64,000 nucleotides of DNA from Leifsonia shinshuensis (GTDB taxonomy: Bacteria > Actinomycetota > Actinomycetes > Actinomycetales > Microbacteriaceae): positions 1,426,001 to 1,490,000 of the forward strand of contig NZ_JAVDVK010000001.1 in assembly GCF_031456835.1 (NCBI RefSeq), given 5' to 3'. Positions 28,536 to 34,186 of this stretch are shown one piece after another (within the stretch, counting starts at the first letter, position 1; every line of letters begins with the position of its first letter). The notes under the pieces were generated by a model. That model made no database searches. It saw nothing but the letters and a program-made list of their open reading frames with translations, and was not told where the DNA came from. The position numbers and the translations under genes were made by a program.

Positions 28536-28937
28536 CTAGGTCAGCCAGCAGCTGTTGATCAAACCCGTGTTGGGCTTCATGATCGTGCGGATGGACTCGG
28601 TGTGCGCGGTCACGCGCTGGTCCGATCCGGAGTACTGGACGATGCGCCAGCCGACGATCGCGAAGTCCTCGTTGAGCGCCTGGATCGCGCAGGTCACCGG
28701 CGTCCCGACGGGGGCGTTGATGGTGAACGAGATGTCGACATGGTGGTCGTCGGGGATGGTGTACGCGGTGTCGGTGGCCTCGAGGTTCGCCTGGTCGTTG
28801 TCCCAGCCGGCCCAGAACACCCAGGCGGTGACGACGGCGACGAGTGCCACGAGACCGCCCACGAGCAGCCAGCGGTCGCGCCGCTTGCGCTGCGGGGTAC
28901 GGCCGTAGCGGGTGTCGAGGGTCGGGGTCGCCGTCAT
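28536..28937 (-). CDS. DUF4307 membrane protein
   Basis: A 133-residue protein with a basic N-terminus (RYGRTPQRKRRDRW), one transmembrane helix (LLVGGLVALVAVVTAWVFW, ~24-43) and an external beta-rich domain containing VTCAIQALNEDFAIVGWR. This matches the DUF4307 family, found next to greA and mca in actinobacteria (Rv1081c position). Function unknown. Divergent from the mca remnant at 29029. Confidence 0.87.
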   Translation of the reverse strand: MTATPTLDTRYGRTPQRKRRDRWLLVGGLVALVAVVTAWVFWAGWDNDQANLEATDTAYTIPDDHHVDISFTINAPVGTPVTCAIQALNEDFAIVGWRIVQYSGSDQRVTAHTESIRTIMKPNTGLINSCWLT

Positions 28938-29028
28938 GCGTGCACCGCCATGCCGTCCAGCTCCGCCTCCCGCTCAGGGGCCCGCCGTCGGGCGACGGTA
29001 GGCTGGAACCAGACTAGGAGAGAAAGCT

Positions 29029-29148
29029 GTGAATGCTGCCGCCCGCCGGCTGATGGCCGTGCACGCGCACCCGGACGACGAGTCCAGCATGGGAGTGGAG
29101 ACCGAGATGCCCGAGACCGACCTCTTCGCCGGGGTGATGGCCGAGTGA
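29029..29148 (+). pseudogene. mca: Internally deleted mca (mycothiol S-conjugate amidase) mini-ORF, 39 aa
   Basis: The reading frame starts at a GTG with AGGAG eight bases upstream and encodes LMAVHAHPDDESS, the exact N-terminal zinc-site sequence of Mca. It then jumps to PETDLFAG, the C-terminal signature (Mca proteins end in PETELFAG-like sequence). Some 250 internal residues are missing, so no amidase can be made. The deletion is in frame, the start signals survive, and the stop overlaps the next gene's GTG. The locus order (greA, DUF4307, mca, small membrane gene) matches Rv1080c-Rv1083, which supports the identity. Either a decayed gene kept as a translational leader, or a strain or assembly deletion. 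Confidence 0.8.
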
Positions 29149-29411
29149 TCGCGGACGCCCTGCTGCGCGCCTCCGTCCGCCTGGCGGCGACGCCCGCCCC
29201 CACGCCGACGGGATCGCCCTCCGACGACTCGGTGACCCCGGGCGTGCTCGGCTTCGTCGTGACGTTCCTGCTCGCGGTGGCCGTCGTCCTCCTCGTGATC
29301 GACATGACCCGCCGCATCCGCCGGGTGCGCTACCGGGCGGAGATCGCGGAGAAGCTGGATGCGGAGCAGGCCGAGCGCGACGCGGACGACCCCCGCGGCA
29401 ACGGCGCGTGA
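29145..29411 (+). CDS. Small single-span membrane protein (Rv1083-like)
   Basis: An 88-residue protein with an N-terminal Thr/Pro segment, one transmembrane helix (GFVVTFLLAVAVVLLVIDM, ~35-53) and a basic then acidic cytoplasmic tail (TRRIRRVRYRAEIAEKL). GTG at 29145 overlaps the mca remnant stop (GTGA). It occupies the position and has about the size of Rv1083 next to mca in mycobacteria. Expression probably depends on ribosomes delivered by the mca mini-ORF. Confidence 0.75.
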   Translation: MIADALLRASVRLAATPAPTPTGSPSDDSVTPGVLGFVVTFLLAVAVVLLVIDMTRRIRRVRYRAEIAEKLDAEQAERDADDPRGNGA

Positions 29412-29884
29412 GGGCGCGGACCGCTCTCGCGATCGGCGGCGGAGCGCTCGTGGTGCTGGGCGTCGCCATGACGACGGCCGTAGTGGCCGCCCCGCACCCC
29501 GCGGACCCGACGCACGTGGCGTCCGTCGCGTCCGCAGGTGCGGCGCCCGGGACGACCGCGCCCGCGGCGACGCCCCGGCCGACGGCGTCACTGTCCTCCG
29601 CCGACGAGAAGCTCCTGGGCTACGTTCGGACGCTGCCGGGGGTGAACGATGTGACGGCCGACAGCGTCGGCGAGTTCACCGACCTGACCTGCGCCACCCT
29701 CCGCTCCCCCAAGATGTCGACGGCGTTCTACAGCCAGGTGCTGACCGTCGAGCAGAAGGGCTACTCGCTCACCGCCGACCAGGCGAACGGCCTGCTCGCG
29801 GCGACCGCTCAGGCGGCGTGCCCGGATGCGCGACGCGTCGTGGAGAGCCGCGGCGCCGACGCGGCGACGGCGCCGGTCGGCTGA
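29408..29884 (+). CDS. Secreted or membrane-anchored DUF732-like protein
   Basis: A 158-residue protein. Residues 5-29 form a signal peptide or anchor (ALAIGGGALVVLGVAMTTAVVA), followed by a Thr/Pro/Ala linker and a small helical domain (~60-145) with LGYVRTLPG and one pair of cysteines (DLTCATL and AACPDA) that could form a disulfide, as in DUF732 proteins. The GTG start overlaps the previous stop by 4 bp, making a three-gene coupled chain with the mca remnant. Function unknown. Confidence 0.65.
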   Translation: MRARTALAIGGGALVVLGVAMTTAVVAAPHPADPTHVASVASAGAAPGTTAPAATPRPTASLSSADEKLLGYVRTLPGVNDVTADSVGEFTDLTCATLRSPKMSTAFYSQVLTVEQKGYSLTADQANGLLAATAQAACPDARRVVESRGADAATAPVG

Positions 29885-29953: not shown

Positions 29954-32125
29954 TCAGCAGGTCGTGCCGCGCGAGACCCCGTCGCCGACCACGTTCGGGC
30001 CGCCCAGCACGGCCGTCGAGCGCACGCCGAGGCTGAAGAGCTGATCGGCCTCCGGCTTCGTGAGGCAGCCGCCCCGCGCAAGCAGGAGCGGCAGGTGCGC
30101 GTGACCGCCCCAAGCGGCGCCCGTGAGTGCATCCGGGAAGTCCAGCCCGGAGGCGATGAGCGCGGTCGGAGCGTCAGGGAAGGCGAAGGCCGTGACCGCG
30201 GCGTTGGTCGCGAACCGGTCGAAGCCGGCGAGCCGGGTGACCTGCGCGACCGCGGACAGGGCGTGGTCGAGTGACGACGGGACGACGTTCGCGCCGCCGA
30301 CCACGGCGATGCGCTTCGGTGCAAGGGCCGCCAGGGTTCCACCGACCGTGACGCCGGTCGTGTCGCTCCCCGGCGTCAGCAGGACCGGCCCGCCCTGGCT
30401 GCCGGCGGCGCCGGTGGCCGAGAGCGCGTCGGGGAAGCTCGTGCCGCTCGCCACGTACGCGATGTCCGCCGAGCCCGGCGCGAAGGCGTAGTGGGCGACG
30501 ATACTGCTCGTGTCGTACCGGTCTCCCCCGGCCAGCCGCACCACGTTCGGCACGATCGCGGCGAGGGAGTCGGTCACCGCCGGCGTGACGGCGTTGACGC
30601 CCCCGACCACGACGACCCGCGCCGGGTGCAGCCGGACGATCTCGTCGGCCACGGTTTTCGGCAGCATCCAGGGCGCCGTCAGCAGCAGCGGTCCGCCCTC
30701 GTGGGCCGCTGCGGCGCCCGCCGAGAGCGCGTCCGGGTAGTTCGTGCCCGACGCGACGTACACGACGGGAGCGCTGATCGGATAGCCGGCCTGCGAGATG
30801 GCGACCGACGTCGCATAGCGGTCGAATCCGCTCACGCGCTGGTCGGGCAGGTGCTGGTGCCGGACGTCGAAGCTCTGCACGCCCATGAACAGCGAGCTCT
30901 GGTCCGTGCGGGAGATCACCGGGGTCTCCAGCCAGCCGTAGCTCGCGGCGAACGCTCCGGCCGAGCCGTCCGCCGGGTACGCGGCATCCAGCTCGTCGGC
31001 CGGCACGGTGAGGGTGGTGCTCGCTCCGGGGTCGGTGTGGCAGGTGGCGACGGCCTGCAGCCGCAGGGTGAAGTCGCTCTGCCGGAGCGCGTCGTCGACG
31101 GCCGCGTGATCCGTGTGGGTGTAGACGAAGCATCCCTTGGCGTCCAGGTTGCTGTAGGCGCCCACGACACCGGCGTCGGGCAGCGAGCCGTCGATGCCGA
31201 GCGCCGCCTTCTGCGCGAGCACCGTGCGCATCGCCCAGTCCACCTTGGCCGGGGTCAGGTCGCCGTCGCCGAGGTCGAAGTCCACGAGGGCACCGCGTCC
31301 CTGCCGGTCCGTCCAGACCCGGGCTGTGGAGTCGGTGAAGTCGGCGGCGTGGACGCCGTTCGGCCGGTCCGGTTGACGGGCCTCGCGCTTCAGATCCACG
31401 CCCCCGGTCGGGAAGGCCGCCGTGGTCACGGAGGGTCCGAAGTCCCCGGGCAGGCTGGTGTCCGACCGCGACATCGTCGTGAAGTAGTTCAGCCACGAGT
31501 TCAGGCGCGCCTCTTCGCAGGAGGCGGTCCGCATCCCCTGCGGTGCAGGCGACACCGGGGTGATGCCGTCGAGCACGCTGAGTGCGTAGCCGACCGGGCT
31601 GCAGTGGTAGGTGGACTCGCCGCGGGTCATCAGGACGAACACCTTGTAGAGGTCCGGCCGGTTCGCGTAGAACGACGCGGCCTCGAACTCGTCGTCGGGA
31701 TGCGGGATGGCGATGTAGAGGATGCGCGCCGGCGACGCGGTCGGCGCCGGTGCGGGGGCTGCCGGGTCGGTCGGCGCGGGGGTCGACGTGCTGGGCGCAT
31801 CGGTCGGATCGGGCGACGGGGTGTTCTCCGGTGCCGTCGGGTCCGCGGGTGTGCCGGTGCTGCCGCCGGACGGGTCGGTCGGGTCAGGGGTGGCGGGTGC
31901 GGCCGGATCGGTGGGAGCGGACGGGTCGGATGGATCGACCGGTGCGCCCGTCGCCGACGGATCGCTCGTCGCGCCGGTGGGGTCGCCGGCGTCGCTGGTG
32001 GACGCCACCACGCGTGAGCCGGCGGATGCGGGTACCTCGGCGGGCAGGGCGGAGAAGCCGGTGGTGGTCAGGGCGATGAGAGCGAGCGCGGCGAAGGCGC
32101 GCGCGCTGGAGGCACGGTGGGGCAA
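29954..32125 (-). CDS. Secreted PIG-L/LmbE deacetylase with cell-wall-binding repeats (copy 1)
   Basis: A 723-residue exported protein. Signal peptide ~1-35; a long Pro/Asp/Ser/Thr linker ~42-131; PIG-L domain ~132-400 with zinc motif PHPDDE (141-146) and a second HTDH motif; then three CW_binding_2 repeats (VSGFDRYATS, LAGGDRYDTS, LAGFDRFATN) to a C-terminal Cys. PIG-L enzymes remove N-acetyl groups from amino sugars, so an envelope-bound glycan deacetylase is likely. The closest relative is the next gene upstream (32288-34186), and the pair looks like a tandem duplication. The substrate is not shown by sequence. Confidence 0.85.
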   Translation of the reverse strand: MPHRASSARAFAALALIALTTTGFSALPAEVPASAGSRVVASTSDAGDPTGATSDPSATGAPVDPSDPSAPTDPAAPATPDPTDPSGGSTGTPADPTAPENTPSPDPTDAPSTSTPAPTDPAAPAPAPTASPARILYIAIPHPDDEFEAASFYANRPDLYKVFVLMTRGESTYHCSPVGYALSVLDGITPVSPAPQGMRTASCEEARLNSWLNYFTTMSRSDTSLPGDFGPSVTTAAFPTGGVDLKREARQPDRPNGVHAADFTDSTARVWTDRQGRGALVDFDLGDGDLTPAKVDWAMRTVLAQKAALGIDGSLPDAGVVGAYSNLDAKGCFVYTHTDHAAVDDALRQSDFTLRLQAVATCHTDPGASTTLTVPADELDAAYPADGSAGAFAASYGWLETPVISRTDQSSLFMGVQSFDVRHQHLPDQRVSGFDRYATSVAISQAGYPISAPVVYVASGTNYPDALSAGAAAAHEGGPLLLTAPWMLPKTVADEIVRLHPARVVVVGGVNAVTPAVTDSLAAIVPNVVRLAGGDRYDTSSIVAHYAFAPGSADIAYVASGTSFPDALSATGAAGSQGGPVLLTPGSDTTGVTVGGTLAALAPKRIAVVGGANVVPSSLDHALSAVAQVTRLAGFDRFATNAAVTAFAFPDAPTALIASGLDFPDALTGAAWGGHAHLPLLLARGGCLTKPEADQLFSLGVRSTAVLGGPNVVGDGVSRGTTC

Positions 32126-32287: not shown

Positions 32288-34186
32288 TCAGCAGGTCGCG
32301 CCGCGCGTGACACCGTCCCCGACAACGTCCGCTCCGCCGAGCATCGTGATGGAGTCGGCTCCGAGCGTGTAGAGCTGGTCGGCCTCGAGCTTCGCGAGGC
32401 ACCCGCCGCGGGTCAGGAGCAGGGGCACGTGCGCGTGGCCCGCCCAGGCCGCGCCGGTCAGGGCGTCGGGGAAGTTGAGGCCCGAGGCGATCAGCGCCGA
32501 CGGGGCGGAGTCGTAGGCGAACGCCGTCACCAGCGCATTGGTCGCGAACCGATCGCTTCCCGCTAGTCTCTGCACCGGCGCGACCCCGGTCAGTGCCCGG
32601 TCGAGGGAGGCCGGTACGACGGAGGCGCCCCCGACGACGGCGATCCGCTTCGGCGCCAGGCCGGCGAGCGTGGCGCGGACCGTCGCGCCGGTGGTGTCGC
32701 CGCCCGGCGTCAGGAGGACGGGAGCGCCCTCGGTTCCCGCCGCGCCCGTCGCCGAGAGCGCGTCGGGGAAGCTGGACCCGCTCGCGATGTAGGCCGTCGC
32801 CGCGGAGCCCGGCGCGAAAGCGTACTCGGCCACCCGGCGACTGGTGTCGAACCGGTCTCCGCCCGCGAGCCGGACGACGTCGGGCGCGAGGGCGGCCACG
32901 GCGTCGGCGACCGCGGGCGTGACCGCACTGTCGCCTCCGACCACGACGACCCGAGCGGGATGCAGCCGGGTGATCTCGTCCGCCACCGCGCCCGGCAGCA
33001 TCCACGGCGCCGTGATCAGGAGCGGGCCGCCCTGGTGGGCCGCTGCCGCTCCGGCGGAGAGCGCGTCCGGGAAGTTCGTGCCCGACGCCAGATAGACCAC
33101 CGGGGCGCCGTCGGGATACGACGCCTGCGAGATCGCGACACTGGTCAGGAAGCGGTCGGCCCCGCTCACCCGGCGCCCCGGCAGGTGCTGGAAACGCACA
33201 TCCACGCTCTGGACACCCATGAAGAGGGAGCTCTGATCCGCGCGGGAGACGACCGGCGTCTCGAGCCACGAGTAGCTCTGCGCGAAAGCGCCGGCGGAGC
33301 CGTCCGCCGGGTAGGCGGCATCGAGGTGGCCCGCGGGGACCGTCGAGGTGCTGGTGGTCCCGGAGTCGTCGCGGCAGGTCGTCGCGCCCTGGAAGCGCAA
33401 GCCGAGGTCGGTCTGCCGCAGCGCGTCGCTGATCGCGGTGTGGTCGCGGTGGCTGTAGCGGAAGCAGCCCGGCACGTTCTCGTTGCTGAATGTGCCGACG
33501 GCGCCGTAGTCGGGAAGCGTCGTGTCCAGACCGAGCGCCGCCCTGCCGCCGATGACCGTCCGCAGCGCCCACGCAGCCTTCGCCGGCGTCAGCGCGCCGT
33601 CGCCGAGGTTGAAGCCGACGAGCGCACCCCGGCCCCGGCGGTCGACCCACACCCGGGCGGTCGAGTCCGTGAAGTCCGGGATCACGGCATTCGAGGGGAT
33701 CTCCGGCCGGACCCCCGGACGTGACAGCGAGACCCCGCCGGCCGGGAACGCCCCCGACGTCGTCGCCGGGCCGAAGTCGCCGGGCAGCGAGGTGTCGGTC
33801 TGCGACATGGCGGAGAAGTAGGACAGCCAGGAGTTCAGCCGCGCCTCCTCGCACGACGCGGTGCGGATCCCACGCGGAGCGGGTGTCACCGGCGGCGCTC
33901 CCTCGCTCACGGCGAGTCCGTACACGACCGGGCTGCAGTGCGTCGTCGCCTCCCCGCGCGTCATCAGCACGAAGACCTTGTAGAGGTCCGGCCGGTCGGC
34001 GTACATCGCCGCCGCCTGGAACTCGTCGTCGGGATGTGCGACTGCGATGTAGAGCACGCGGGAAGGAGTCGTGGCCGCCGGAGCACTGCGTTCGAGCGCA
34101 CGCGCCGCGGTCGGCGCCAGGCTGCCGATACTGCCGATGCCGGCGATCACGGCAACGCCGACGGCGAGTGCGCGCAGGAACCTCAT
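32288..34186 (-). CDS. Secreted PIG-L/LmbE deacetylase with cell-wall-binding repeats (copy 2)
   Basis: A 632-residue homologue of the 29954-32125 protein without the long linker. Signal peptide ~1-30; zinc motif AHPDDE at 50-55; second metal motif SHRDH; near-identical stretches across the catalytic domain (LYKVFVLMTRGE, RTASCEEARLNSWL, QSSLFMGVQS) and three CW_binding_2 repeats ending in a C-terminal Cys. It is intact. The second copy may differ in substrate or timing. The ribosome site lies in or next to a hairpin (34192-34221). Confidence 0.85.
   Translation of the reverse strand: MRFLRALAVGVAVIAGIGSIGSLAPTAARALERSAPAATTPSRVLYIAVAHPDDEFQAAAMYADRPDLYKVFVLMTRGEATTHCSPVVYGLAVSEGAPPVTPAPRGIRTASCEEARLNSWLSYFSAMSQTDTSLPGDFGPATTSGAFPAGGVSLSRPGVRPEIPSNAVIPDFTDSTARVWVDRRGRGALVGFNLGDGALTPAKAAWALRTVIGGRAALGLDTTLPDYGAVGTFSNENVPGCFRYSHRDHTAISDALRQTDLGLRFQGATTCRDDSGTTSTSTVPAGHLDAAYPADGSAGAFAQSYSWLETPVVSRADQSSLFMGVQSVDVRFQHLPGRRVSGADRFLTSVAISQASYPDGAPVVYLASGTNFPDALSAGAAAAHQGGPLLITAPWMLPGAVADEITRLHPARVVVVGGDSAVTPAVADAVAALAPDVVRLAGGDRFDTSRRVAEYAFAPGSAATAYIASGSSFPDALSATGAAGTEGAPVLLTPGGDTTGATVRATLAGLAPKRIAVVGGASVVPASLDRALTGVAPVQRLAGSDRFATNALVTAFAYDSAPSALIASGLNFPDALTGAAWAGHAHVPLLLTRGGCLAKLEADQLYTLGADSITMLGGADVVGDGVTRGATC

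Follow-up and report, generated by a model that had tools for sequence, protein, structure and literature searches.

What is left of a gene that has become useless when the start codon of its neighbour overlaps its own stop codon? Downstream effects should limit gene loss in operons, and natural series of such loss have rarely been laid out. The question is raised by a 39-codon open reading frame of Leifsonia shinshuensis (29029..29148, plus strand), which lies in the window analysed here, a stretch of 64,000 nucleotides (contig NZ_JAVDVK010000001.1, positions 1,426,001 to 1,490,000). The frame stands at the locus of mca, the gene for mycothiol S-conjugate amidase. No earlier account of this relic locus was found in the open-licence literature.

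Results and Discussion

The mini-ORF translates as VNAAARRLMAVHAHPDDESSMG followed directly by VETEMPETDLFAGVMAE and the stop. The N-terminus of Mca contributes about 22 codons, containing the AHPDDE motif (29029..29094, plus strand), and its C-terminus contributes 17 codons and the stop (29095..29148, plus strand); the junction was set by eye in an alignment with intact mca and is accurate to a few codons. The Mca equivalog model TIGR03446 matches the translation in two separate stretches with E 1.2e-7. Only the ends contribute to the score of 31.6 bits, which lies below the curated cut-off of 277.15 bits and hence below full-length Mca, and Pfam PIG-L alone gives E 0.12 only. In the congener G019, a full mca that begins VNAAARRLMAVHAHPDDESSKGAG and ends SKVETEMPETDLFAGVRA occupies the same locus. 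Because of this gene and of the two-stretch match, the N- and C-terminal similarities are not due to chance, and the alignment indicates that the mini-ORF descends from mca at its conserved locus. The claim of the earlier note that mca was reduced here to a 39-codon in-frame mini-ORF was thereby borne out, with about 22 + 17 codons close to the 20 + 15 it had given.

It had also described the ribosome site, the GTG start, the frame and the GTGA overlap as preserved, and all of these are present. The Shine-Dalgarno-like AGGAGA (29016..29021, plus strand) precedes the GTG and pairs with the 16S tail at a duplex energy of -8.6 kcal/mol. The pattern CTA(A/G)GAGA ahead of the mca start is matched in 28/28 Leifsonia genomes. 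At 29145..29148 (plus strand) the stop of the mini-ORF and the start of the next gene share GTGA. The tail additionally contains an ORF with its own ATG, MPETDLFAGVMAE plus stop (29107..29148, plus strand), and the SD-like GGAGTGGAGA at 29092-29101 stands before this ATG with an SD energy of -9.1.

On the other side, the divergent DUF4307 gene (28536..28937, minus strand; PF14155, E 3.4e-24) served as anchor of the locus, being present in 28/28 Leifsonia and 148/150 family genomes. Between the two lies the near-palindrome TAGGCTGGAACCAGACTA (28999..29016, no strand assigned) with two opposed TAnnnT elements. This pattern was found in all 28 Leifsonia and in 53 of 79 family regions, compared with a background of 0.047 per shuffled segment and 0 in segments within mca. 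Its conservation suggests that TAGGCTGGAACCAGACTA is probably a symmetric bidirectional promoter of the DUF4307 gene (minus strand) and the mca shell (plus strand). Promoters of this kind are reported for other bacteria (PMC12825309, PMC10268837).

Directly behind mca or its relic, at a conserved position, follows the gene of a small membrane protein of 88 aa (29145..29411, plus strand), for which Pfam, NCBIfam and PDB gave nothing credible. An assignment as the oxidase subunit CtaJ, which is MSMEG_4693 according to the section cited (PMC8523172), was rejected, as NF050118 gave 12.1 of 43 bits (E 0.2). The GTG of a putative secreted 158-aa protein (29408-29884) overlaps the stop of the membrane-protein gene, again as GTGA; among the 27 other Leifsonia regions, a match to it is listed in G015 only. 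Further along, two tandem paralogous secreted proteins are encoded on the minus strand (29954-32125 and 32288-34186). They carry CWB2 repeats, from Pfam for the first, and an HPDDEF stretch that resembles PIG-L below Pfam detection.

Mca loss turned out to be genus-wide and not special to this genome. Among 28 Leifsonia genomes, Mca scores above the cut-off in only three (G003, G012 and G019). The same three pass for MshC, and MshD (searched at E 1e-20) passes in these and in G006. No genome passes for MshA, MshB or Mtr; since even the three mca-bearing genomes fail, these proteins are uninformative as markers and MshC and MshD were used instead. The earlier note had concluded that losing Mca removes the detoxification step. 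Mca is indeed gone, and with it more than that step, because MshC and MshD are missing too. Mycothiol is stated to be "used sparingly in Microbacteriaceae" in the section cited (PMC6106888). G006 (L259), which has lost mca and mshC but still has MshD above its threshold, represents an intermediate point in the loss of mycothiol.

Could the short frame be an assembly collapse of an intact mca? We consider this very unlikely. The genome is a single 3.79-Mb contig of completeness 100, and the PF02585 matches reported for the whole genome include no second Mca; the sole match elsewhere is a 355-aa fusion of a receiver domain with a PIG-L deacetylase domain (G000:C1:359020, L001). MshC is absent as well. 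In addition, 24 other Leifsonia genomes are without mca at this locus, with other junctions. A second mini-Mca of 77 aa, from a different contig, was moreover found in a protein collection.

For the history of the loss we used a tree of greA, DUF4307, trhA, uppS and rpoB (6313 columns). A split with support 100 sets the clade of this genome apart from the remaining Leifsonia. Within the clade the mca-bearing G019 is sister to the mca-less G013, likewise with support 100. Given this topology, G013, G014, G009, G015 and at least one other lineage lost mca separately, unless G019 regained it; in that case, six differing lengths still require separate in-frame changes. Relative to G019, the net deletions are 756, 804, 780, 783, 744 and 771 nt, all multiples of 3 (only net lengths were compared, and the tail lengths differ in G000, G005 and G009). 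As these lengths differ, there were several losses or length changes.

The frame from the mca start to the mca tail is open in all eight mca-less species of the clade, and their internal deletions differ. In seven of them it reaches the overlap; in G015 it continues into the next gene. With a chance of one third each, such retention has p 0.0005 for seven lineages, 0.0014 for six and 0.004 for the five whose losses are forced by topology alone. Outside the clade, the GTG-to-tail frame is kept in 0/6 lineages with tail remains, so that the genus-wide count is 7 of 13 (p 0.10). The frame is thus kept within this clade and not elsewhere in the genus. The 77-aa mini-Mca was excluded from these tests because a search of a protein collection detects in-frame cases only.

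We sorted the 25 mca-less genomes into three classes and then checked them by script. In class A (n=14), an ORF with a start codon contains the mca tail and ends at the overlap in 14/14. Seven of these begin at the original GTG and have 23-43 codons (G000, G021, G001, G014, G009, G013, G005), and seven start inside or just before the tail (G017, G024, G020, G027, G004, G007, G006). In class B (n=7), the next gene now starts in the region of the tail ATG (G015, G008, G010, G025, G026, G018, G023); in G015 this frame is shared with the GTG as well. Class C (n=4) has lost the tail, and the next gene uses its own start (G002, G011, G016, G022). In G002 (L089), an ATG newly formed within the former SD opens an 18-codon ORF whose end lies at the overlap; it may be a leader that was regained.

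The 39-aa product itself is very improbably a functional microprotein. The ORF is predicted in a database (P0001), but the length of 23-43 aa and the middle sequence vary between sister species, and the conserved peptide expected of a microprotein was not found in their comparison. Substitutions in the tail are not concentrated at third positions and give no sign of codon-level constraint.

A second idea is neutral recent decay, in which internal deletions left a remainder that is simply not yet lost and whose frame was never selected. The erasure of the relic in other genera, the lack of peptide conservation and the pooled frame test with p 0.10 only are all in its favour. It has to be set against the clade frame test (p 0.0005-0.004) and against the fate of mshC, a gene whose loss is presumably of similar age. 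On its two sides mshC has uppP and a convergent gene that we take to belong to the PAC2 family. A tblastn search (E 0.01) gave no trace of it in 24/24 mca-less genomes examined, where its neighbours now stand 12-247 nt apart (G023, whose uppP is split in two matches, is outside this count). Having no gene behind it to protect, mshC was erased completely. We regard neutral decay as improbable.

We assign a probability of about 0.6 to the reading that mca was lost under a polarity constraint and that the shell serves the overlapping small membrane-protein gene. The mini-ORF and the 29145 gene form a pair with a 4-nt stop/start overlap and an open upstream ORF with a start codon. In E. coli, coupling is reported to require no more of the upstream gene than its last 15 nt (Huber et al. 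2023, PMC10666635). In another study, 14 overlapping pairs were tested and strict coupling was reported for 13 (Huber et al. 2019, PMC6728339). In Leifsonia, the downstream start is less accessible with a shell (0.34) than without (0.51, p 3e-5). The equal-window values are 0.371 and 0.525 (p 2e-4, composition-corrected p 0.02), with the species not being independent points. Genomes with the intact gene resemble class A, and classes B and C are higher. At the family level there is no difference (36 v 29, p 0.67; G048 and G132 lack a candidate start, and G055 is displayed separately).

The main rival is that cis elements were retained and no coupling takes place. On this view the downstream gene requires the promoter, the final mca codons persist only as carriers of its SD and start region, and the frame stays open by coincidence. 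The weak SD that coupling would lead one to expect before the downstream start was not found in shell-bearing Leifsonia. The SD-like energy just before 29145 is -9.3, and the SD at the overlapping start averages about -9.6 in shell-bearing species vs -6.6 in direct-start Leifsonia. Because it is stronger and not weaker with the shell, the 29145 gene may start unaided. The overlap proves little, since the second codon of the downstream gene, ATC, preserves ATGA or GTGA even without a leader ORF, as it does in 3/4 such species. A tail without codon-level constraint and the loss of the GTG frame outside the clade fit this rival too. It does not predict that 7/7 clade lineages stay in frame from a distant GTG, that the GTG is retained at all, or that the tail is longer than an SD requires, and we judge it possible but unlikely. 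Translational coupling accordingly remains likely and no firmer than that, because the SD strength, the ATC-derived overlap, the family accessibility and the unconstrained tail codons count against it.

How long does such a shell last? Outside Leifsonia, we analysed 80 regions from the 148 family genomes with the DUF4307 anchor, a non-random set chosen to include Mca-lacking genomes and then filled in handle order. Between DUF4307 and the membrane gene, mca is present in 47 and absent in 32; the remaining region, G065, ends early at a contig end and is out of the count, and G143 is included in the 32 despite a chance-level downstream match (E 6.8). The 4-nt overlap occurs in 36/47 mca-bearing genomes, and at order level in 20/30 loci under a first-candidate rule. 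The mca tail motif (<=400 nt) is absent in 31/32 mca-less genomes. The one genome that has it, G055, again shows a GTGA overlap. From these 31 genomes, and from the Leifsonia lineages that keep the tail only or start the next gene directly, it follows that the shell is dispensable in the long run; it is probably transitional.

The idea of the earlier note that the shell feeds ribosomes to the membrane-protein gene therefore holds in part. Frame retention in the clade, the contrast with mshC and the more structured downstream start speak for it; the uninformative overlap, the dispensable shell and a tail that holds the SD of the next gene speak against it, which leaves it no more than likely.

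Conclusion

In summary, the relic is confirmed, and its interpretation is supported in part and widened to a genus-wide, repeated and polarity-shaped loss of mca that came after mycothiol genes had been lost; the window shows this process at an intermediate stage. The mechanism that we infer involves translation of the mini-ORF, termination-reinitiation and selection against polar effects. In ancestral Microbacteriaceae, mca would have been followed by the small membrane-protein gene with a 4-nt stop/start overlap. When Leifsonia ceased to make mycothiol, mca would have become useless and been deleted repeatedly, and selection would have removed those deletions that disrupted expression of its overlapping neighbour. 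Survivors would keep the promoter, the SD, the start and the mca tail with the overlap. Ribosomes would load at the GTG, or at the tail ATG in older relics, make a short peptide of no significance, terminate at TGA and reinitiate at the GTG that overlaps it.

More tentatively, and at slightly less than even odds, we propose that such polarity-constrained erosion follows a pathway that can be repeated. Where the first gene of an overlapping pair is no longer of use, sister species would independently cut it back to its start and its last dozen codons, in every case in frame, so that a coupling ORF remains that is non-coding in function; later the internal SD-ATG of the tail would take over or turn into the start of the neighbouring gene, and finally the relic would vanish. 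If this is true, Leifsonia shows all stages together, from the full gene over the 77-aa and 23-43-aa relics to tail only, fused start and none, and offers a natural experiment on how operon partners outlive the death of a neighbour. At this one locus, with mshC as internal contrast, a single genus displays graded stages, and the part that overlap coupling plays in genome reduction becomes directly testable. Annotators should be aware that an ORF of 20-40 codons ahead of an overlapping gene may be a relic that has a role in cis.

With the ATGA termination-reinitiation pairs, as the sections cited describe them (PMC6728339, PMC10666635), the locus shares the 4-nt overlap, and it would share an upstream ORF read into the downstream start and the sufficiency of a short 3' piece of the upstream gene. 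There, however, the upstream gene is functional, while here it is a deletion relic for which coupling is inferred only. Ordinary pseudogene decay or reductive mycothiol loss in Microbacteriaceae, in the section cited (PMC6106888), has the lost pathway in common with our case, but the decay in this clade spared start, frame and tail. Compared with the Mca of TIGR03446, the protein ends, the locus and the promoter are the same and about 250 residues, most of the enzyme, are missing. Leader peptides and upstream ORFs can couple translation, and the mini-ORF resembles them as a short ORF overlapping a gene start; it differs from them in having no known regulatory signal and in its origin from a gutted enzyme.
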